A stretch of 40,677 nt of DNA from Psychrilyobacter piezotolerans (GTDB lineage Bacteria; Fusobacteriota; Fusobacteriia; Fusobacteriales; Fusobacteriaceae), in contig NZ_QUAJ01000019.1 of NCBI RefSeq assembly GCF_003391055.1, positions 34,812 to 75,488 of the forward strand, written 5' to 3'. The notes beneath the pieces were generated by a model, which did no database searches, was not told the DNA's origin, and saw nothing but the letters and a program-made list of their open reading frames with translations. This document shows, piece by piece, positions 20,119 through 34,117 of the stretch (the stretch's first letter is position 1; each line of letters starts with the position of its first letter). The translations under genes were made by a program, and so were the position numbers.

Positions 20119-21173
20119 ATGAATAAGAAAAGTATCTTTTCAGAGATAATCAAAAAGGAAAACTTTGAAGTAGCAATAGATAAAATCAAAAAAATGGTGA
20201 AAAAGCAACTGGGATAGATAACATCTCTATTGAGGAATTTATCAAAACCCAGAACCCATACCAAACTATCCTTGAAAGACTAAAAGATTTCACACCCAAT
20301 GGAGTTAAAAGAGTTGATATACCAAAAAGTGATGGCAAAACTAGACCTTTAGGCATACCAACAATCGAAGATAAAATAATACAAATGATGTTCAAGAATA
20401 TTCTTGAACCCATAAGTGAAAAGAAATTTCATAATCACTCGTACGGTTTTAGACCTAATAGAAGAGCGGAACACGCAATTGCATGGAATAATCGATTAAT
20501 AAACCAAAGCAAGTTACACTTCTGTGTAGATATTGATATTAAAGGCTTCTTCGACAATATTAACCACACCAAACTGATAAAACAATGCATAAAAATTGGG
20601 ATAAAAGACATGAAAGTTATTAGTATAATCAAAGCAATGTTAAAAGCTCCTATACACCATAAGAATGGGGAAATAGAAATACCTAATAAAGGAACCCCTC
20701 AAGGAGGGATACTTAGCCCCTTACTATCTAACATCTGCTTAAACGAATTAGATTGGTGGATAAGCAATCAATGGCAAACCTTTAAAACTAGACATACATA
20801 TAGTTCAAGGAATCACACATATAGAGCATTAAAAAAAGAAAACTTAACAGAAGTATATTTAATAAGATATGCAGATGACTTTAAACTATTGTGCAGATAT
20901 AGAGGAAATGCTGAAAGAATGTTTAATATAACTAAACTATTTTTAAAGAATAGACTAAAACTTGAAATATCTAAAAAGAAATCTAAAATTGTAAATCTTA
21001 GAAAACAAAAATCTGAATTCTTAGGTTTTGCAATTAAAGCTGTTCGAAAAGGAAAGAAGGGTAAAAGGGTAGCTCATACTTGGATGAAAGATAGTGCCAT
21101 TAAAAGTTGTACAACAAAACTAAAGGAAACTATTAAGAAAATCAAAAGAAAACCCAATATAAAAAAATATTAG
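20119..21173 (+). pseudogene. ltrA: Group II intron reverse transcriptase, frameshifted
   Basis: The ATG at 20119 begins MNKKSIFSEIIKKENFEVAI. After an A7 tract (20188-20194) that frame ends at a stop. The next frame continues NGEKATGIDNISIEEFI, then IPKSDGKTRPLGIPTIEDKI, SYGFRPNRRAEHAI and the catalytic LIRYADDFKLL. One extra A would restore the frame. A second break at the A7 tract 21161-21167 ends the RT at 21173. The RT motifs themselves are intact. It could be a dead gene, a slippage-expressed gene or two base-call errors. Confidence 0.8.
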
Positions 21174-21774
21174 GTTATATAACAGTCAAGTAAGAGGTAT
21201 TCAAAATTATTACCAAATTGCTACCCATATATCTATTAGTCTAGGAAAAATAGGTTTCATAACAGATAAGGTGATATACAACAGACTAAAAGATATCGCT
21301 AGGAGAAATCATAAGGATGAAAGATACCGAGAAAGGTTTCGAGGATACAACTACAAAACTTGGAGTATAAATAATACAACTCTCTTCACAATTCAAGCTA
21401 GAAAATGGAAACTAGCAAAATTATCTTCTAAGAAAAAACCTAAAAAACTTACTATTAAGCAAGATAAATCGAAAAGATTGATTGATGAAAAAACATCACA
21501 TAAAAATAATCAAGCTTATAGTAAGGAATGGAGTGCAATCAGAGCTATATTATATCACCGAGAAAATTGTATCTGCTATGTAACGGGAGAATATGTAAGG
21601 CATAATGAATTTGTAGTACATCATATTATCCCAAAAGAATATGGAGGAAAAGATAACTTTGAGAATTTAATTATACTCAAAAAAGAAATCCATATTGAAT
21701 TACATAAAAAGAACCCTAGTTTTAGTAATCCGAAATTTGATGAACTTAGAAAAGAAATTCTAAATTGTAAATAA
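21174..21774 (+). pseudogene. Maturase and HNH endonuclease part of the intron protein
   Basis: It continues the intron protein after the second frame break: RLYNSQVRGIQNYYQIAT is the maturase (domain X) start. Then VIYNRLKDIARRNHKDER and a C-terminal HNH nuclease with CICYVTGEYVRHNEFVVHHI and NLIILKKEIHIELHKKN. The metal and catalytic residues C-x2-C-like, HH, N and H are present. A separate in-frame start at 21271 (GTG) exists but lacks a good ribosome site, so translation as an independent protein is doubtful. Confidence 0.7.
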
Positions 21775-23536: not shown

Positions 23537-24253
23537 ATGGGGGAGATTGAACAAACAATGGTAAATGAGAACATGTTATTGAAAAGAGATCGTGACAATT
23601 ATTTATTGGAAGCATTCCGTGTACTCAGAAGTAATATATATTTTTTGGAAAAAAAAAACCAACAAACAATAGTATTTACTAGCACTATTCCAAATGAAGG
23701 TAAAACTGTCGTATCAAAAAATTATGCTATGTTTGTAGCAACAACAGGAAGAAAAGTAATCATAGTAAATTGCGATATAAGAAGGGATAAAAATCACAAT
23801 AATTTTGGACTAAAAATAAATTATGGGATAGAAAGTATTCTGACAGGAGAGAGACAACTAGATGAGGTGATTATTAGGGGTGTAGAAAAAAATTTAGATA
23901 TTTTACCTGCAAAACATTTAAATAGGGATACAACAGAACTTTTCCTGGGAAATAAAATAAAAGAATTACTAGAAAAATTAAGGGGGAGATATGATCTGAT
24001 AGTACTAGATACTCCTCCCCTTACCATAGCTACCGATGCAGCAATACTTTCGGAATATGCAGATGGGGTGATCTATGTCTGCGGATATGATATGGTGAGA
24101 AAAGAAAAAATGATTAGAGCCAAAAAAATATTGAAACGTTCCGGAGCTAAAATTTACGGGGTAGTAGTAAATAAGATAAATGAAAAGGCATACTCCGGAA
24201 ACTACGGATATGAGGAATATAAACATTATCATGATTATATAAAAAAAGCTTAA
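23537..24253 (+). CDS. CpsD/Wzc-type tyrosine kinase (BY-kinase)
   Basis: 238 aa. BY-kinases autophosphorylate a C-terminal tyrosine cluster and control polymerisation of surface polysaccharide. Seen here: Walker A-like STIPNEGKTVVS (G55-K56-T57), Walker A' VIIVNCDIRR (74-83), Walker B LIVLDTPP (154-161), and a tail with YSGNYGYEEYKHYHDY. The protein is the cytosolic domain only, as in Gram-positive CpsD; no Wzz-like membrane partner is in the window. The ATG at 23537 lacks an upstream ribosome site. GGGGGAG inside the first codons might instead serve the ATG at 23558, though 12 bases away. No capsule genes adjoin it, so it is an orphan here. Confidence 0.87.
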   Translation: MGEIEQTMVNENMLLKRDRDNYLLEAFRVLRSNIYFLEKKNQQTIVFTSTIPNEGKTVVSKNYAMFVATTGRKVIIVNCDIRRDKNHNNFGLKINYGIESILTGERQLDEVIIRGVEKNLDILPAKHLNRDTTELFLGNKIKELLEKLRGRYDLIVLDTPPLTIATDAAILSEYADGVIYVCGYDMVRKEKMIRAKKILKRSGAKIYGVVVNKINEKAYSGNYGYEEYKHYHDYIKKA

Positions 24254-24755: not shown

Positions 24756-27700
24756 TTAATTATTTTCTCCACTACTTTCTTTACTGCCGTCTACACTGCT
24801 GTCTACACCAAATTTATGATTGGTTCCCTCTCCTACTACCTTTATCTTACTTTTCCTTTGCCTTACCTCATCTTCCATCCTAACCTTTATTCCGTCGGAT
24901 TCTTTTGGGATAAAATAAGTTTTCTCAAAAGTTTTTTTATGTCCCAGCCTGTCCCAGACTGTAAGAAGAAGCTCACCCTTAGATCCTCCTACAAATCCCG
25001 AAGTAGGTATTGTAACGATGGTGGTTATAGATCCAGGTTGGATGGATTCAAAACTATCACCGTTAAGATCTTTTGCCTCAAATTCAACTTTGTCATCTCC
25101 CACTGTGAAAACATAATTATATTCTTCTATTCCGGATAATTCCTCCAAATTGCTCAGACCTATGACTATATTCTTATCGCTTCCTAAATCTCCTATTATT
25201 CCCCCTTCCAGGTAGGAGGTATTCACCCTGGTATCCACCACAAAATTAAGTCCTACCGGATCTCCTTCTACACCAGCTACGCTTATAGGAGTTACTACGG
25301 CGATGTTTGGACCGTCTGTGTTAAAATTGGATCCGCTGTTACTGTTTAATTCTATATCTTCCGTTTTATTGAGAATATTAACCAAGGTGGTGTCCGGGAC
25401 CCCGTTTTTTTCCATTTTCAAGTATATTGCATCTGCTCCCGCTGCACCACTTACATCGGCATAGATAGTCGGATCATCTTCCAGTGAACCTCCTCCTCCC
25501 TTGGTAAATAAATACCCATTTACACTTAAACCATTATCCCCTGTCCTGCTGGTTGTTATATTGTCCCATCCATTGACAGCCTCATAGGTTTGAAGCGCTA
25601 TTGCCTTAGGTTTACGGTTATCCACAATTAGGGTTGTATCCCCTTCTATTCTGTTCCCCGCCTTATCCTCACCTGCTAATTTTAAAGCCACCTCCTTATA
25701 GTCGGTGTTATCATCTATTTCAAAGGTATAGGTTATATGGTATTTCTCATGGTCATCCGTATCTTGAACAGCTACACTGGATGGATTCAAGACAGAATAG
25801 CCGTCCGGGAAGTACAAGAGATACCCTCCGTAAGAGGCGCCTGTTATCTCCCTGGAAGCCATATTATAATCTTTGACATCAAAGGAAATTTCTACCGTAT
25901 CTCCGTCTTGTACATGAACCTCCCCTGCCGTATCCACACTGTTGATTCCGTATTTTATTTTGAAAGTATCGTTGGTTATGGATATATTGGAAACGACCGG
26001 ATCCACCGTATCTACCATTATTTTAATTTCTGTTGTTGACGGATTCACCAAATTGTCTACCATGATTTCGTTAAAATCATTTTTTGAATAATCGGTTATT
26101 CCTTTTAATTTTCCACTTTTACTCATCCCGTAGAGTGGCGCAGTATATTCCCCATCGGTATTTTGGTTAGGTTCCAACCCTACATCAAAAATAGTGTCTC
26201 TTTTCCCTCCCAGATAAACACTGCTGTCTTGTGGTGGAGAATGATAACTTGGGGCCCCTGTTTTTAAATCTGATTTATCCTTGTTATATTTAAATCTCAG
26301 TATTCCTGCCCTGTAATTACTGTCCGTTCCCATAAGGTTGACTCTATAGTCTCCGTTGATATAATATACCCCATCTTGAGGAGGTATGATGGAATTATCG
26401 GTATATGTCAATTCAGGCGTAGGACTTATCTCCGTATTGTCTATGTTTAAAATACCTGTGTTTTCACTGGCTGTATTCCCTGCCGCATCCATAATTTCAT
26501 TTACAACACTTATTATTCCGTCGGCATTTACTACCTCTATATCCTGCCAGATAAGTTTAAACCTCTCTATTGGTTCTGCCACCGAAACAGGCTCTACAGC
26601 GGGAACCGGCCATCCCAGATTACCTGTGGCGATATAAACATCATTCTCATTTAAATTTTTATCCTCTATTGTTATAGTCAGATCCAGAATATCTCCCGTC
26701 TTAACATAACTTCCTTCATTTGTTAAAATGGAAGTTAATTCCGACACGCTGGCTGCGATGTATCCTGAATATGTCTGTGCATCACTGAATATAGGATTGT
26801 TATTCAGATCAACTGTGGATTCTAAGAAACTTTTCAAAGTCTTATCCTCTACTGCGACTCCCACTATCCTCGGTGGTATCACATCCACTTCTACATTGGG
26901 CAGCACCTTGGTTTCATTGAATAGATCGGTAGCTGCTGTAGCTTCAAGATTTATAAGCTCTATATTGTTGTCCCTCAGTATCTGCATCTCAGCTTCCGTC
27001 AAAACTACATTGAATTTATACCATCCCTGATTTCCGAAGGTATCAAATCCATCTGTATTTCCAGTGATCCCCTGTAATTTAGTTGCACTTATCTTTAACT
27101 CTACCTCGCTGCCTCCGGTATTATTTAATACTTCCTTCAACTCTGAATCCCTTAATTTTATCCTGTACCTAGCATCATCTAATTTTTCAAAATCATTATT
27201 TAGAAGATTGTCAAATAGATTAGGAGTAGCGGACTGATTGTTCAGCTCATACCACGCATCGGATATGTCTCCCATTAATTCTACGAACTTTGCTTCCTCT
27301 ATATCGATTTCTGTTCCGCCTACTACTAGAGCTAATGAAGTTCCTGTTGGACTGACTAAGGAATTAGCCAAGATCTCTGCTTTCTCTGAACCACTTAATT
27401 TTATACTGTATTCCCCTGTCGGTAATATCGTATACTTTAACTTATTTATATGATTTAGGATATCCTTTCCAGAGTTGTTTTGAACAACCACCCAAGATTC
27501 TGTCCTTCTGTCTAATATGCCTCCTAACTCTGTCTCACTTATTGTAAACGGCAGCCAGCCGTCTTCCGATAAGCTCACAGCTATCTCACCTGTAGTTCTG
27601 CTAAATAGTAAAGTCCCATGAATATCAAAGACCTTCAATCCCTGTTCTTTTATGATATCTTCAATTGTTATAGTATTTCCATCATTATCTAATTCATTGT

Positions 27701-30700
27701 ATCTGGATTTAGCCAGGAAGGTTATACTTCCCATTCCATCCACTATACTTAGTTTAGGAAAAGTCCCCGTCGGATCCTCAAATTCTACAACTAATTTTTC
27801 TTGCTGTACAGAATATTGATTGTCTCCTGTTACAGTTAAATCTCTGATCTCCCTGCTTATAGGAGTTTCGTCTGTACCGGTTACATTTATTAATTTAAAG
27901 TCTACCGTTCTGGTGGTACCGTCATACACATTGAATGGTGTCAGATAAGATAAGATCCAGCTTTGAATAACCCCCATATTGTTTATAATCTCCGATAATG
28001 CTCCTTTTATATACTGCTCATTATTTCCCATCTCATACATAAAGAAATTATCCGCAGAATTATAAAGCTTAAAATCGGTATGATAAATATCTCCTATAGG
28101 CGACGGAATATTCCCTTCTATTGGACCCACCCCGTATTTCCTGTCATCCCAGACATCCCAATTTTTCCCAATTTTTCTCCCAGTGGTATTTTGATAAACC
28201 CCGCCTGGAACCGTAACCTCTTTATAAGAGGTTACACCCTGGTCAGGATAAACGATTCCAGGTTCACCAGTAACAGGGTGTTCTAGACCATTTCGTCCTA
28301 CACTGAATATACCGCTTAAATTTATATTATCCACTATCCCATTCTCATTAGTGTGGTTTAACTTACTGTATAGTGTACTCAATACATTAACATGAGTATA
28401 ATTTTCACCCGGTATCTCTGAAATCCAATCGGTATCCATATTTGCATCGGTTAAGAATATTATATGTTTTTTAGATGGTATGTAACCCCCGCTATTCACA
28501 GTCGCTATCTCTCCCGTATTAGTTAAATATCTGCCATTTTCACGGAGTTTTTTTATGGCATGATGAATTCCCCAGGCACTGTTTTCCTCTCCGTCTACAT
28601 ATCCACTTGCAGGATTCAGTTGAGCAAAGGCATCTTTTAATTCCTTCAATTCCTCCTCCCTTCGATTTTCCAAAGTGATACCGCCTTCCGTCGGATTGGT
28701 TTTAAGCCCGTCAAACCATTTGTCCTTATAGATGGCCATATGATAGTATCCTCCAGCACTTTCTACAGGGCCATTATCTCCATATTCATGTATCTTATCA
28801 GCCCAATTGCCCACAGGGGAAACCTGTGTACCTTGGACATTAAACTGATCATTCTGTCTTGGACCAAAGGTAATCAGATTATATTTTACATCATACCCCC
28901 TGTTGTAGAGTTCCTGTCCAAAATTTGTCAGCTCGGAATTTACTGAAGCGATCTTATTTGTCATTGACTCAGAATTATCCACTACAAAGACTATATCCAA
29001 CGGAAATAAAAATCTTCTTTGATCAGATTCAGTTAATGTTGCTCCACCCTCTTCTATTACTTCATTTACTCCTTCTGTTATGCCTGTTCCTTCATTTGTT
29101 TCAGCAGCCTTATACCCAGAATATTCAGGGTAACTGGATTGAAGGTTAGAAGTATCTAATTTTATTTTCCTTTCCATCTTAGTGAAGAAATTTACATTTA
29201 CTTGGATTGCACCATCACTTGTACTTGTGGTTATATAGTCTACCTTATGGAAATTATTTTCTTTGGCAAACTCCTCACTGACTACATCCAGTATATCCAT
29301 ATGAAAACCATCGGAATCCTCGTAAGTTATTACCTTATAAGTGCCGTCATATCCTCTCTTCACAGTGTAAAGCTGGATGGTATAGTCTCCTATTGGTAAT
29401 CCTATTAACCTCAAATCTTTATTCTCATAAGTGACTACACCATTTGAAAAAATCAATTGCTCCTTAACTCCCGCATCAAAGATAAAATCCACATAATTTT
29501 TATCAGAGGTGCCCGATAAAAATTCTTCCAGCCTTAAGTTTCCTTCTGTTGTTTCATCTAAGTAATTTATAGGATTTTCATTAGTGTATGGATCCCAATA
29601 ATATACCGGTAACCCTGCACCATCTGTAGCCGGTGTACCTTTGACTATTCTGAAAATTATTTTTTCATAATTTGAAAACTCTCCGTTGGTGTTTGAAGGT
29701 CCTTCATCCCAGCTATAGGATACCTTATCTCCACTTTCCACAACCTTAGTTAGTCCGTCTCCAGACTCATCTGTATAAAACACTATATCACTGCCATCCT
29801 CCCCCACTAAACTACCCTTGGAATCTGTGACGGTTTTTTCTATGATGAGCCCTCCTGCCGGTTCGGCAGCGGGATAGGTCCAGCTCTTATTTCCATAGGT
29901 AAATTCATTTATTTCTGTATGACCGCTGTTTTCAAGTATAAAATTATTTAAACCATCTCCATAGTTTATGGTCTTCATCTGCCTGTATCCCGTCCTTTCC
30001 GGGGTAAGGATTCTATCCTCTATTTCATAATCTTGAATTTCAAAATCCTTTAAAGGGTTGAATTCAAACAATACCCTCTGGTGGGGATATCTTTCATCTT
30101 TAATTGCAGGAACAGGTTCTATGTATTTTCCCGTTATATCACTTGCAGCAACACTGTCGTCTATATCAATATCAAATGATATAGTTCTCTCCTTTGCCTC
30201 TTCATCTGTGAATAGGGTGTTGTACTCGCCAGTCCATCTGTATACGTATTTTTCTACCCCGTCTATCGTTATTTTGTTTCCTGCTGCCACATAGTTTATT
30301 CCACCTATATTTATACTTCCAACAGTATTTTGAGTTAAAGTTATATTAGCATAAAGATTATCCTCTGCAACACTGTCATTATTTACCCTTGTTTCTTTGA
30401 CATTTAAAAGTTTTACCACTGCTGGTACTGGTAGATCTGCATCAGTTAATGTAATTATATTTAATTCTATATTTTTATAATTAGATATATCTATATCTTC
30501 CAGCCAAACCTTTTCCCCTGCTATAGGTCCATTTTTCCCTGTAAAACTTAATGAATCTTCATAGGTTGCAACCACGTAGTTTCCTATATCCTTATTGTTT
30601 TTATACCTAAGGGTATAAAAATCCAGTTTATAGGGTTCCAAGTTTTTCAATCCCATAAGCTCAAACCTGCCGTCTGTAAATTTTCCAGTTAGCCCGTCCT

Positions 30701-32171
30701 TTGAAATTTCCTGCTGGCTTTCGCTGATTTCAAAAACAAAGTCTATGTAATTGAGGGTTCCGCTTAAAAATCCGGATAAATTGTCTCCCGCATCTATTTT
30801 TTTTATAGGTCTGAGGTCTCCCTGTGGAGTAGTAGTCCCATTATACAGCCTGAACACTACCTCCTGGGATTTGTAGGCCATCAGATGCGCCAACTTATTT
30901 TCTTCTGTTTCATCATAGATAAAGGTATTCTTAGATGGCTCCAGATCTGCCTCCCTAAAATTAGTCGCAGGAGCAGGAACCGTATAATTTTCATCTATTT
31001 TTTCTATATAAGTACTGCCATCTTGTATAATAGTTAAATTAAATCCGCCCTCCTTTGGTAGTCCCGTATTTGGAGTGAGTTTAAATTTAACCATTGATTT
31101 CGGTTCACCGCTGTAGCTGTATTTTTCAGGTTCACCTGGAGTAAAGGTTGTTTCAAAATGGTTAACAGGGTCTGAGCTCAAAAACCCCTTTAAACTTACA
31201 CCTCCCGATGATACAGCCGATAACTCTTCTACAGCCAGTCCACTGGTTATATATTGGTCTGAGTTCATTAAATTGTCTTTTATTATTTGGGAATATATAT
31301 ATTGGTCTCCAGGTTCTTCTTCAACAAGAGGATTTTTCCCTAAAAATCCTAGAGTACTCTCATAAGTAGCTATAACATAGTTTTTAGAATCTGGATTTCC
31401 AGTTAACCCATATCTCAAAGTATAAAGATCTATTTTATAAGATTCATTGTTTTCTAACCCTATGATTTCAAATTTGCCATTTATAAATTTACCTATAATT
31501 CCGCTTTTTTCTATTATTTGTACAGTTGCAGTTGCCTCCTCATGAGGTTTTACTTTTATAAATATAAAATCCACATAATTGTTACTGTTATAAATATCAT
31601 CTACACTATTATCTTCAACTTTTTTTACAGGTCTGAGCCCTTCTGTTTTAGTCCCAGTATAAAGTCTGAAAACTACCTTTTGACTCTCATATTGATTATC
31701 ATTATTACTGTTTTCAATATAAGTAAATTCATTGTTCTCACTGCTTACTTCTTTAAAATCAGTCGTAGGAGCAGGGATACAATAAGCTTGGCTTATTGTA
31801 TTAGAATCATATTGAAGGGTACCATAAAAAGTATCAGATTGGTTTTTAGAAAGTTCCAATTCAATCATCGGTCTATTAGTACCAGAATAACCAAATTTAT
31901 TTTCACTTATTTTTTCAAAATTTAACGGTTCATAAGAATTATTAGATATCAAAACATCTTCTAAGGTTGCATCTCCCGTTTCCAAAGATCTAATTCCATT
32001 TACTATTTGATCACTATGATTCTCATTATAATAATAGTCATATGATGAATTCGAGCCGTCTGCTGTTCCTAAATTTTCTCTCGTTACTTGAGAATAGATA
32101 TATTGTTCACTCGAAAACACCGAGACACTCAATAATATAAATAAAATAAAGATTTTATAGTTCTTAAGCAT
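24756..32171 (-). CDS. Giant secreted protein with von Willebrand A domain (2471 aa)
   Basis: The signal peptide MLKNYKIFILFILLSVSVFS leads to a fully extracytoplasmic protein. Two clear tandem modules follow (about 22-285 and 289-545), each starting QYIYSQ, passing VVFRLYxGT, LRPxKK and YxxxLYTLRY, and ending with GKN. A more diverged third copy (about 640-960) keeps KNYVDFIFDAG and IQLYTVKRG. A vWA domain begins near 1055: PLDIVFVVDNSESM carries the complete MIDAS triplet D1065-x-S1067-x-S1069, with D1242 in IIFLTDANMDTD. The C-terminal 1000 residues look like repeated beta-sandwich (Ig-like) units, e.g. IMVDTVDPVVSNISI and LIVDNRKPKAIAL. No LPXTG, autotransporter barrel or lipobox is seen, so anchoring is unknown. 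It overlaps the upstream coiled-coil gene by 8 bases, with GGGGGT as its ribosome site. Adhesin or matrix protein is the likely role; this is inference. Confidence 0.82.
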   Translation of the reverse strand: MLKNYKIFILFILLSVSVFSSEQYIYSQVTRENLGTADGSNSSYDYYYNENHSDQIVNGIRSLETGDATLEDVLISNNSYEPLNFEKISENKFGYSGTNRPMIELELSKNQSDTFYGTLQYDSNTISQAYCIPAPTTDFKEVSSENNEFTYIENSNNDNQYESQKVVFRLYTGTKTEGLRPVKKVEDNSVDDIYNSNNYVDFIFIKVKPHEEATATVQIIEKSGIIGKFINGKFEIIGLENNESYKIDLYTLRYGLTGNPDSKNYVIATYESTLGFLGKNPLVEEEPGDQYIYSQIIKDNLMNSDQYITSGLAVEELSAVSSGGVSLKGFLSSDPVNHFETTFTPGEPEKYSYSGEPKSMVKFKLTPNTGLPKEGGFNLTIIQDGSTYIEKIDENYTVPAPATNFREADLEPSKNTFIYDETEENKLAHLMAYKSQEVVFRLYNGTTTPQGDLRPIKKIDAGDNLSGFLSGTLNYIDFVFEISESQQEISKDGLTGKFTDGRFELMGLKNLEPYKLDFYTLRYKNNKDIGNYVVATYEDSLSFTGKNGPIAGEKVWLEDIDISNYKNIELNIITLTDADLPVPAVVKLLNVKETRVNNDSVAEDNLYANITLTQNTVGSINIGGINYVAAGNKITIDGVEKYVYRWTGEYNTLFTDEEAKERTISFDIDIDDSVAASDITGKYIEPVPAIKDERYPHQRVLFEFNPLKDFEIQDYEIEDRILTPERTGYRQMKTINYGDGLNNFILENSGHTEINEFTYGNKSWTYPAAEPAGGLIIEKTVTDSKGSLVGEDGSDIVFYTDESGDGLTKVVESGDKVSYSWDEGPSNTNGEFSNYEKIIFRIVKGTPATDGAGLPVYYWDPYTNENPINYLDETTEGNLRLEEFLSGTSDKNYVDFIFDAGVKEQLIFSNGVVTYENKDLRLIGLPIGDYTIQLYTVKRGYDGTYKVITYEDSDGFHMDILDVVSEEFAKENNFHKVDYITTSTSDGAIQVNVNFFTKMERKIKLDTSNLQSSYPEYSGYKAAETNEGTGITEGVNEVIEEGGATLTESDQRRFLFPLDIVFVVDNSESMTNKIASVNSELTNFGQELYNRGYDVKYNLITFGPRQNDQFNVQGTQVSPVGNWADKIHEYGDNGPVESAGGYYHMAIYKDKWFDGLKTNPTEGGITLENRREEELKELKDAFAQLNPASGYVDGEENSAWGIHHAIKKLRENGRYLTNTGEIATVNSGGYIPSKKHIIFLTDANMDTDWISEIPGENYTHVNVLSTLYSKLNHTNENGIVDNINLSGIFSVGRNGLEHPVTGEPGIVYPDQGVTSYKEVTVPGGVYQNTTGRKIGKNWDVWDDRKYGVGPIEGNIPSPIGDIYHTDFKLYNSADNFFMYEMGNNEQYIKGALSEIINNMGVIQSWILSYLTPFNVYDGTTRTVDFKLINVTGTDETPISREIRDLTVTGDNQYSVQQEKLVVEFEDPTGTFPKLSIVDGMGSITFLAKSRYNELDNDGNTITIEDIIKEQGLKVFDIHGTLLFSRTTGEIAVSLSEDGWLPFTISETELGGILDRRTESWVVVQNNSGKDILNHINKLKYTILPTGEYSIKLSGSEKAEILANSLVSPTGTSLALVVGGTEIDIEEAKFVELMGDISDAWYELNNQSATPNLFDNLLNNDFEKLDDARYRIKLRDSELKEVLNNTGGSEVELKISATKLQGITGNTDGFDTFGNQGWYKFNVVLTEAEMQILRDNNIELINLEATAATDLFNETKVLPNVEVDVIPPRIVGVAVEDKTLKSFLESTVDLNNNPIFSDAQTYSGYIAASVSELTSILTNEGSYVKTGDILDLTITIEDKNLNENDVYIATGNLGWPVPAVEPVSVAEPIERFKLIWQDIEVVNADGIISVVNEIMDAAGNTASENTGILNIDNTEISPTPELTYTDNSIIPPQDGVYYINGDYRVNLMGTDSNYRAGILRFKYNKDKSDLKTGAPSYHSPPQDSSVYLGGKRDTIFDVGLEPNQNTDGEYTAPLYGMSKSGKLKGITDYSKNDFNEIMVDNLVNPSTTEIKIMVDTVDPVVSNISITNDTFKIKYGINSVDTAGEVHVQDGDTVEISFDVKDYNMASREITGASYGGYLLYFPDGYSVLNPSSVAVQDTDDHEKYHITYTFEIDDNTDYKEVALKLAGEDKAGNRIEGDTTLIVDNRKPKAIALQTYEAVNGWDNITTSRTGDNGLSVNGYLFTKGGGGSLEDDPTIYADVSGAAGADAIYLKMEKNGVPDTTLVNILNKTEDIELNSNSGSNFNTDGPNIAVVTPISVAGVEGDPVGLNFVVDTRVNTSYLEGGIIGDLGSDKNIVIGLSNLEELSGIEEYNYVFTVGDDKVEFEAKDLNGDSFESIQPGSITTIVTIPTSGFVGGSKGELLLTVWDRLGHKKTFEKTYFIPKESDGIKVRMEDEVRQRKSKIKVVGEGTNHKFGVDSSVDGSKESSGENN

Positions 32172-32661
32172 TTTTACCCCCTTTTAATTCGGCCATTATT
32201 TTATCAGCCTTATCAAATTGATTCATACTTTTATATGATTTATACAACCTCATGTTTATCTTTTTTATATCATCAATAGATAGACTTTCTTTCAATGCCT
32301 CCAGGATGATTACGCTGTCTTCTGGAAAATATTTATATTCATCTATCTCAGTTAAAAAAACATCTAATTTCTCCCTTCTGATTTTTTCATCGGATTCGGA
32401 TAAAATTTCATCCTTTATGTTCTCCAATTTTTTTCTGATTTCCCCTCTTTTTATTTCATTCTCTTCCAGGAGTTTTTGATTCCTCTGTATAGTTTCTTCT
32501 AATTTTTTCCTGCCTGTATCTAGTTTTTCTTTCAATTCTTCCTGTTTTTGTTCCCTCAATATTTCTTTTCTGCTTTTAACTGTATTTTGGGGACGATAAA
32601 CTGTTAAAACTATTAAAACACCAAATAAAATCAATGTATATATTAAATTTTTTTTCTTCAT
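32164..32661 (-). CDS. Membrane-anchored coiled-coil protein coupled to the giant vWA gene
   Basis: 165 aa. One N-terminal membrane segment (LIYTLILFGVLIVLTVY, residues 6-22) is followed by a long charged coiled coil (about 30-115), with stretches such as EILREQKQEELKEKLD and KLEETIQRNQKLLEE. A short helical C-terminus has NMRLYKSYKSMNQFDKADKI. The gene ends with GCT-TAA overlapping the ATG-CTT of the giant gene by eight bases, so the two are probably translated together. AGGAGGT precedes the ATG and TATAAT lies about 40 bases upstream. A helper for export or surface attachment of the large protein is plausible but unproven. Confidence 0.68.
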   Translation of the reverse strand: MKKKNLIYTLILFGVLIVLTVYRPQNTVKSRKEILREQKQEELKEKLDTGRKKLEETIQRNQKLLEENEIKRGEIRKKLENIKDEILSESDEKIRREKLDVFLTEIDEYKYFPEDSVIILEALKESLSIDDIKKINMRLYKSYKSMNQFDKADKIMAELKGGKNA

Positions 32662-32848: not shown

Positions 32849-33559
32849 ATGAAAAAAATATTATTAATCTTACTGATTAGCTTTAGTTTAATAAGTTATG
32901 GAAAATCCATCGATGCAAGGCAATTACAGTATAGAAATGGGAGGATGTATGAAGAGAGTCAGCAATCTCCATATACAGGAGAAGTTATCGTCTATTACGA
33001 AAATGGAGAAATCAAAACTAAAGAAAATTATAAAGGTGGAAAACTAAATGGGGGAGTTATTGACTTTTACGAAAATGGGGAAGTCAAAGTTAAAGGAAAT
33101 TATAAAGATGGGGAACCAAATGGAGAATGGATTCCCTATTACGAGAATGGAGAAATGAAAGCTAAAGAAAATTATAAAGATGGAAAACTAAATGGGGAAA
33201 TTACTGACTATTACGAAAATGGGGGAATCAAAGCTAAAGGAATTTATAAAGGTGGGGAACCAAATGGAGAACAGATTATCTATTACGAAAACGGGAGAAT
33301 CAAAGCTAAGGAAAATTATAAAGATGGGGAACAAAACGGAGAAGTTATTGGCTACTACGAAAATGGACAAATAAAAGTAAAAGGAATTTATAAAGACGGG
33401 AAACTAAATGGGGAATGGATTATATATTACGAAAACGGACAAATCGGATATAAAGCAAATTATAAAAATGGATTAGAACATGGGGAATGGATTATATATT
33501 ATGAAAATGGACAAATTAAACGTAAAGGAAATCATAAAGATGAAATGCTGGTTAATTAA
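32849..33559 (+). CDS. Secreted MORN-like repeat protein
   Basis: 236 aa. The signal peptide MKKILLILLISFSLISYG is followed, from about residue 45, by eight units of 23 residues of the pattern YYENGxIKAKxNYKDGxxNG E. These are MORN_2 (YwqK-like) repeats. The DNA repeats every 69 bases at 32988-33540, and adjacent units are nearly identical, so copy number could change by recombination. AGGAGG precedes the ATG. It is transcribed away from the giant vWA operon, with a terminator shared with the pilin gene. YwqK-type proteins are sometimes annotated as antitoxins; the signal peptide argues for an envelope role here. Confidence 0.8.
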   Translation: MKKILLILLISFSLISYGKSIDARQLQYRNGRMYEESQQSPYTGEVIVYYENGEIKTKENYKGGKLNGGVIDFYENGEVKVKGNYKDGEPNGEWIPYYENGEMKAKENYKDGKLNGEITDYYENGGIKAKGIYKGGEPNGEQIIYYENGRIKAKENYKDGEQNGEVIGYYENGQIKVKGIYKDGKLNGEWIIYYENGQIGYKANYKNGLEHGEWIIYYENGQIKRKGNHKDEMLVN

Positions 33560-33595
33560 AAAAAATTAAAGGTGTTATAACTCATTGGGGGGTAA

Positions 33596-33632
33596 CAAAA
33601 AAGGGATTTGAGAAAATCTCAAACCCTTTTAA
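33596..33632. terminator. Bidirectional terminator between MORN and pilin genes
   Basis: AAAAGGGATTTGAGA and TCTCAAACCCTTTT pair with one bulged A and have A/T runs on both sides. It lies between two convergent stops. Confidence 0.78.
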
Positions 33633-33634
33633 CT

Positions 33635-34117
33635 TTAATATAAAACCCATAACTTACCCGCGGTACTTTTGTCTTCTTTTGTTCCTGTTAGTCCTGTGGT
33701 TAAAATCAGGTGAAAATCATCTGTTACCGTTATGGAGGTAGCACCTGTAGTTAAATTTTGAGTTCCGTCGTTTAGTACAACAGTTCCCCCGTATTTAAAT
33801 ATTCCATCGTTTTCTATCCCTCCCACCGGGATTTTACCGGTAGTGTCCTGGATGAGCTCATTCGTTCTAGTATCCAGCCTGGAAGTTATGTCTTCAAAGG
33901 TAATAGTCAGAGGTCCCCCTTCATTTTTAACCATCCTATCTGTAACAGCTACATTTCCAGCCGTTCTAGCTGCTCCTAATACTGCTACTGCCTTGGCATC
34001 CTTGGACTTGGCCAAACTTTCATTTAATTTTCCTGCCAATGTCGTTGCTAATGTAATCAGCATTGCTGTTACCACCACCATCTCGATCAGCGAAAATCCA
34101 TTTTTTAATTTCTTCAT
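33635..34117 (-). CDS. Type IV pilin-like (pseudopilin) protein
   Basis: 160 aa. The N-terminus MKKLKNGFSLIEMVVVTAML carries the prepilin peptidase site G|FSLIE with the conserved Glu at +5 and a hydrophobic helix. The rest is a small beta-rich head ending KLWVLY. AGGAGG lies eight bases before the ATG. Pilins assemble into type IV pili or type II secretion pseudopili. No other pilus assembly gene (ATPase, platform, peptidase) is in the window, so it must use machinery encoded elsewhere. The head sequence is not recognised. Confidence 0.82.
   Translation of the reverse strand: MKKLKNGFSLIEMVVVTAMLITLATTLAGKLNESLAKSKDAKAVAVLGAARTAGNVAVTDRMVKNEGGPLTITFEDITSRLDTRTNELIQDTTGKIPVGGIENDGIFKYGGTVVLNDGTQNLTTGATSITVTDDFHLILTTGLTGTKEDKSTAGKLWVLY

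Follow-up and report, generated by a model that had tools for sequence, protein, structure and literature searches.

Giant vWA proteins of Psychrilyobacter piezotolerans and its relatives: candidate type IV pilus-borne adhesins encoded with an inner-membrane partner

The window analyzed here, a stretch of 40,677 nucleotides from Psychrilyobacter piezotolerans (contig NZ_QUAJ01000019.1, positions 34,812 to 75,488), encodes on its minus strand a 2471-aa von Willebrand factor A (vWA) protein and, overlapping its start, a 165-aa membrane protein. Our best reading, drawn by comparison with known systems, is that the giant protein works like PilY1 without being a member of the PilY1 family. We consider the chances about even that it is a modular vWA adhesin exported by the type IV pilus (T4P), PilY1-like in its working and equipped with a dedicated inner-membrane partner. 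Observations that speak for a T4P adhesin include an array of further giants directly 5' of pilB-pilC, a T4P gene set in the genome, and short forms in which the C-terminal region of the giants follows a signal peptide by itself. Counting against it are the position of the window copy away from the pil locus, the missing pil linkage of the outgroup copies, and the low confidence of the structural models.

Architecture of the giant protein

Both ORFs were recovered as described in the initial annotation of this DNA, including their 8-base overlap. The features of the pair are the following.

32164-32661, minus strand: helper, 165 aa, with an N-terminal transmembrane (TM) segment and a charged helical region; genes of this kind lie upstream of vWA giants at six loci
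32164-32171, minus strand: 8 bases shared by the stop of the helper and the start of the giant, ATGCTTAA
24756-32171, minus strand: giant vWA protein, 2471 aa, 274 kDa, Sec-type signal peptide (from the ORF and its paralogues on contig C22)
32112-32171, minus strand: signal peptide region, residues 1-20, without lipobox (sequence and hydropathy)
31311-32108, minus strand: N-terminal module 1, residues 22-287 (self-alignment)
30516-31310, minus strand: N-terminal module 2, residues 288-552, 44% identical to module 1
29292-30104, minus strand: third, more distant module copy, residues about 690-960 (scores above all shuffles)
27882-29012, minus strand: vWA domain, residues about 1054-1430 (sub-threshold Pfam VWA match, homologue over the cut-off, alignment)
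28965-28979, minus strand: MIDAS DxSxS, residues 1065-1069, DNSES (alignment)
28446-28454, minus strand: LTD motif, residues 1240-1242, putative MIDAS Asp (invariant in the alignment)
24759-25601, minus strand: C-terminal region that is the constant part, residues 2191-2471; Ig/FN3-like according to a weak model, and carried by itself in short forms
24759-24899, minus strand: conserved basic C-terminal tail, residues about 2425-2471, ..RQRKSKIKVVGEG..

The giant has a pI of 4.4, and its hydropathy peak is the signal peptide, the start of which is alike in the giant, its paralogues and the short forms. As the initial annotation had it, there is no recognizable anchor beyond this signal peptide: the protein possesses neither a lipobox nor a second TM-like stretch of comparable strength, Pfam searches gave no match to a type V beta-barrel translocator or TPS domain, and, since no NCBIfam model matched at E up to 1, it carries no known type IX C-terminal sorting domain. 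At the N-terminus, the three related modules proposed earlier are borne out by alignment scores that all exceed their shuffled maxima. Between modules 1 and 2, 105 of 239 aligned positions are identical, with a score of 403 against a shuffled maximum of 59. Both also match residues ~690-960, at scores of 111 and 122 compared with shuffled maxima of 66 and 56. The number of such modules in the N-terminus differs between the giant paralogues.

The Pfam VWA model covers only the first 57 of its 174 positions in the window giant and scores 19.6 bits, below the curated cut-off of 23.8. The vWA call is nevertheless secured by a homologue from another family, which matches this model over the cut-off (55.3 bits) and contains two vWA stretches. 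The giant alignment shows conservation of DxSxS (D1065, S1067, S1069) and of LTD (1240-1242). A Thr is usually the third MIDAS element; it could not be placed with certainty in the giant, where an invariant E-N-S lies near the expected position. Of the intact MIDAS site claimed earlier, two elements thus stand and the third has no certain place, so that we regard an intact site as likely rather than proven. The beta-sandwich tail has weak support. AlphaFold models built from three sequences reached pLDDT values of 33 for the vWA domain and 46 for the C-terminal region. We discarded the former for its low confidence and took the latter as a hint only: its core, with a confidence near 70 compared with 46 overall, resembles FN3/Ig sandwiches, which weakly favors the proposed fold. 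Structure prediction, suggested as a check on the initial annotation, yielded this hint and nothing usable for the vWA domain. PDB profile searches returned nothing useful, and a PHROGs search nothing informative.

Paralogues, gene array and distribution

The window genome contains three full-length giants in all. The two others (2313 and 2254 aa) are encoded on contig C22 together with a 447-aa short form that consists of the signal peptide and the C-terminal region. They form an array in the order helper, giant, short form, giant, situated between rpsR (our reading of a 77-aa protein adjoining ssb) and pilB-pilC; the gene order is ssb, rpsR, helper, giant, short form, giant, pilB, pilC, followed 3' of pilC by an ABC transporter pair, a conserved 227-aa ORF and a prepilin. 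Since terminator-like hairpins bracket the helper-giant unit on both sides, co-transcription of the C22 giant with pilB is not supported. Sequence conservation along the giants is strongly polarized. Residues 1-300 of the window protein are only 13-18% identical to the paralogues with 39-78% gaps, whereas residues 2301-2471 are 52-53% identical; these alignments show the C-terminus as the constant end and the N-terminus as the variable one. The C-terminal region is found in only four proteins of the window genome, all of one family.

Such an arrangement of copies and short forms could serve mainly as a recombination store from which the sequence of one expressed adhesin is varied, and there is evidence of this flavor: the short form P0007 and the 3' end of the giant P0005 share 657 bp at 82% identity, the number of modules differs between copies, the second copy in genome G057 is split and has lost its DxSxS motif, and genome G059 keeps short forms only. 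Among the three full-length copies, however, the best tracts reach just 73-77% over 0.2-0.9 kb, and because long near-identical tracts are missing from them, no recent gene conversion is visible. We regard a recombination store as highly improbable.

Among 98 Fusobacteriota genomes, the close giant family is limited to the genus to which the window belongs, while the vWA core reaches G062 and G063, which represent other families, and weakly G041. A scan of genome contigs found a single relative. In six genomes of the genus, one of which is G057 (Fusobacteriaceae bacterium UBA2433), the site between rpsR and pilB harbors members of the giant family. Since this arrangement is shared by descent, the six occurrences amount to one observation. 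Besides the C22 array, its contents are as follows.

G055, rpsR-pilB interval: two giants
G057, rpsR-pilB interval: a giant and a split gene
G059, rpsR-pilB interval: two short forms only
G058, rpsR-pilB interval: one 302-aa short form
G061: a C-terminal piece next to pilB, where the contig ends

The split gene of G057 (L039 11675-17812) consists of ORFs of 554 and 1460 aa, with DNSKY in place of DxSxS, and we read it as a decaying copy. Outside the genus, the C-terminal region ends two proteins of G045 (another genus), away from pil genes, and a profile of the basic tail also finds G041 and one G045 protein. In the DNA read around them, neither the giants of G062, G063 and G041 nor the C-terminal relatives in G045 have adjoining pil genes. 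In G042 and G044, a signal-peptide protein of 346-351 aa is encoded directly 5' of pilB (L068 16754-17794, L074 6173-7228), where the giants sit in the window's genus, and its tail, NRQRTSSITV, recalls theirs. We considered it as an ancestral short form; the profile comparison was weak (E 0.16 and 0.68), and we treat it as a positional analogue only.

The window copy has neighbors of another kind. Adjoining the 3' end of the giant is an isolated ParA/AAA_31-type ATPase of 238 aa (23537-24253, plus strand), which resembles the ATPase domains of exopolysaccharide tyrosine kinases. A few kb downstream, an RVT_1 reverse transcriptase fragment is followed by an HNH ORF (20385-21774, plus strand); together they look like a broken group II intron protein. 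On the other side, a MORN-repeat gene and a convergent prepilin gene form a pair (32849-34117) that has a second copy on contig C10 (L099 7594-8998). The two prepilins are 74% identical, and both copies are found near a Na:alanine-type symporter, on which grounds we take the pair to be an old segmental duplication. We discounted the prepilin beside the window pair as evidence for T4P, the second pilin-MORN copy on C10 being without a giant.

The helper gene and its pairing with the giants

The helper has a single N-terminal TM segment, and 58% of its residues 29-100 are charged. A GGGGG Shine-Dalgarno-like stretch lies just 5' of the ATG of the giant. From the overlap of the two genes, which is also present in relatives, we infer that they are translationally coupled. 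Small genes encoding a TM segment and a charged helix are located directly 5' of giants at both loci of the window genome (G000) and in G055, G057, G062 and G063; the C22 helper is 49% identical to that of the window. Helper and giant genes overlap at five of these six loci (by 29, 17, 29 and 4 bp in C22, G055, G057 and G062, besides the 8 bases in the window), and a 50-bp gap separates them in G063. Five of the 338 genes in the fetched loci had helper-like properties and all five precede a vWA giant; with the G062 helper, which has a GTG start and was missed by the gene caller, this becomes six of six, a count that is descriptive because the thresholds were set after the helper had been seen. 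Giants in second position of an array lack a separate helper, although one is encoded farther upstream of them.

The partners in G062 and G063 deserve a separate word. Homology of their sequences to the helper was not upheld, as a two-sequence helper profile misses both. A four-sequence profile gave E-values of 0.03 and 0.12, above all 300 shuffles, at scores no better than those of unrelated coiled-coil proteins; for this reason, we claim these two partners by position and architecture only. The searches also gave no sign that the helper is an alignment protein of the PilN/PilO type: it had no match to the PilN or PilO families in Pfam, its profile scored at noise level only against PilN of two genomes (E 0.15-0.35), and the Pfam PilN of the window genome is encoded elsewhere.

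Losses are informative as to what the helper serves. In G059, the rpsR flank is 97% identical to that of G055, but the helper that follows has lost most of its length; what is left, directly upstream of a short form, is its 3' part, 80% identical and interrupted by stops. In G058 and G059, short forms that share the C-terminus occur without a working helper, so that the helper is not needed for every family member. Since G059 has lost both the helper and the vWA body and keeps short forms, the helper appears to go with the vWA body, a link seen in this one genome. The survey of gene pairs in Fusobacteriota, foreseen in the initial annotation, thus found homologues paired; since pairing recurs at six loci, the notion that they never are can be set aside, and the suggestion of a dedicated helper is strengthened by the pairing and by its loss along with the vWA body. 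We conclude that the helper-giant pair is real and recurrent, and that it probably functions as a unit.

A signal peptide without an outer-membrane anchor, next to a helper of the inner-membrane type, would also suit a giant that never reaches the surface and stays periplasmic or tethered to the inner membrane by the helper, for instance as a scaffold of the cell envelope. Its roughly two dozen beta domains would, however, if extended, be longer than the periplasm; the vWA domain with its DxSxS motif and the variable number of modules fit ligand binding; and the array sits in a pil locus. This explanation is in our view unlikely.

Type IV pilus machinery and likeness to known systems

Pfam matches in the window genome include PilM, PilN, PilQ, PilD and prepilins. 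There is one secretin, clustered with a prepilin peptidase, prepilin-like minor pilins, PilM and PilN; PilO and PilP candidates in this cluster were assigned by position and by similarity to other genera. PilB and PilC adjoin the giant array on C22, and a PilT-like ATPase is encoded elsewhere. Two of the three full-length giants and the short form thus adjoin pilB-pilC, whereas the window copy does not, and the minor pilins are on C13. The initial annotation had seen in the two genes alone a possible new export pair. This is not supported, as the gene context points to the T4P machine (PilQ, PilB, PilC) as the likely route, with the helper as an accessory. The PilQ-type secretin (L044 8696-10414) has a carboxypeptidase-regulatory-like domain (37.4 bits) ahead of its secretin domain. 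A 2417-aa ORF with a secretin domain was seen in G044 (L075, G044:C2:1446000-1465000); codon and protein character suggest that this contig is foreign, i.e., a contaminant.

PilY1 proteins start with a type I signal peptide. Their C-terminus is conserved and binds minor pilins, their N-terminus is variable and often possesses a vWA domain, and they are found at the pilus tip (PMC7541494, PMC13190605). As in vWA-bearing members of the PilY1/PilC family (PF05567; e.g., P. aeruginosa PilY1 and M. xanthus PilY1.3), the giant combines a type I signal peptide with a vWA domain carrying DxSxS, and in both groups a constant C-terminus, a variable N-terminus, several paralogues per genome and, for part of the copies in the window genome, genes in a T4P locus are encountered (PMC7541494, PMC13190605, PMC9210963). 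The type I (Sec) assignment for the giant comes from sequence and hydropathy, and Pfam gave no match to N_methyl, the motif that goes with the class III signal of type IV pilins. The differences are equally clear: the giant has no PF05567 propeller, its vWA domain lies in mid-protein instead of N-terminally, it is about twice the size of PilY1, its C-terminus is Ig/FN3-like (by a weak model), and it possesses a coupled membrane partner and a dispersed copy outside the pil locus. None of the 98 Fusobacteriota genomes had a PF05567 (PilY1 propeller) match over the cut-off, in a search whose control genomes were likewise without a positive and whose sensitivity is therefore unproven.

Two further systems offer partial precedents. 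Non-pilin cargo such as TcpF and CofJ leaves the cell through T4bP after docking on a minor pilin (PMC9565799); these are small proteins in which a flexible N-terminus does the docking, whereas the constant part of the giant, and its presumed docking end, is the C-terminus. In Streptococcus sanguinis, the modular pilin PilB displays a vWA adhesin module by means of T4P (PMC8179133), as we propose for the giant; unlike that pilin, the giant starts with a Sec-type signal peptide and lacks an N-methylation motif.

Type IX secretion systems follow yet another logic, in which a C-terminal domain is the sorting signal. The cargo proteins of Bacteroidota, with a conserved C-terminal domain on variable proteins, are like the giant in this logic only; no family match was found, and the window genome has just four members of one family. 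One could accordingly imagine that the giant crosses the outer membrane independently of the pilus, with its C-terminal domain and basic tail serving as the signal by which it is sorted, and that the position beside pilB is historical. The constancy of this region, its occurrence alone in short forms, and its presence at sites distant from pil genes (G045, G041 and others) would suit such a route. It sits poorly with the lack of any NCBIfam match and with the restriction of the region to a single small family, unlike a general sorting signal, and we hold it to be rather improbable.

We propose export and display through T4P because the giant family shows the logic of PilY1 and T4P cargo with different parts; dependence on T4P, C-terminal docking, surface location and the role of the helper are what we infer from this likeness. 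The giant would be exported to the periplasm by Sec. The helper, anchored in the inner membrane with its charged helix in the periplasm, would hold or stabilize the vWA-bearing body before pilus loading, and the constant C-terminal domain and basic tail would dock on minor pilins or on the periplasmic T4P ring. Pilus extension could then move the giant out by way of the PilQ secretin, bringing it to the tip or the cell surface, where the vWA/MIDAS domain and the variable N-terminal modules may bind a ligand.

T4P genes are present in Fusobacteriota genomes, but a PilY1 match was found in none of them. It is possible, though we lean against it, that giant T4P adhesins replace PilY1 in this phylum, with a non-propeller C-terminal module for docking and export and a coiled-coil inner-membrane loader for proteins of 270 kDa. 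If the giants are pilus-borne adhesins, the logic of PilY1, in which one end is constant and docks while the other is variable and bears vWA, is also realized by unrelated parts, and the helper would be a specific partner for moving very large proteins through the pilus machine. The short forms, made up of a signal peptide and the C-terminal region, offer a minimal export reporter, and G059 provides a natural test of which part of the giant the helper serves.
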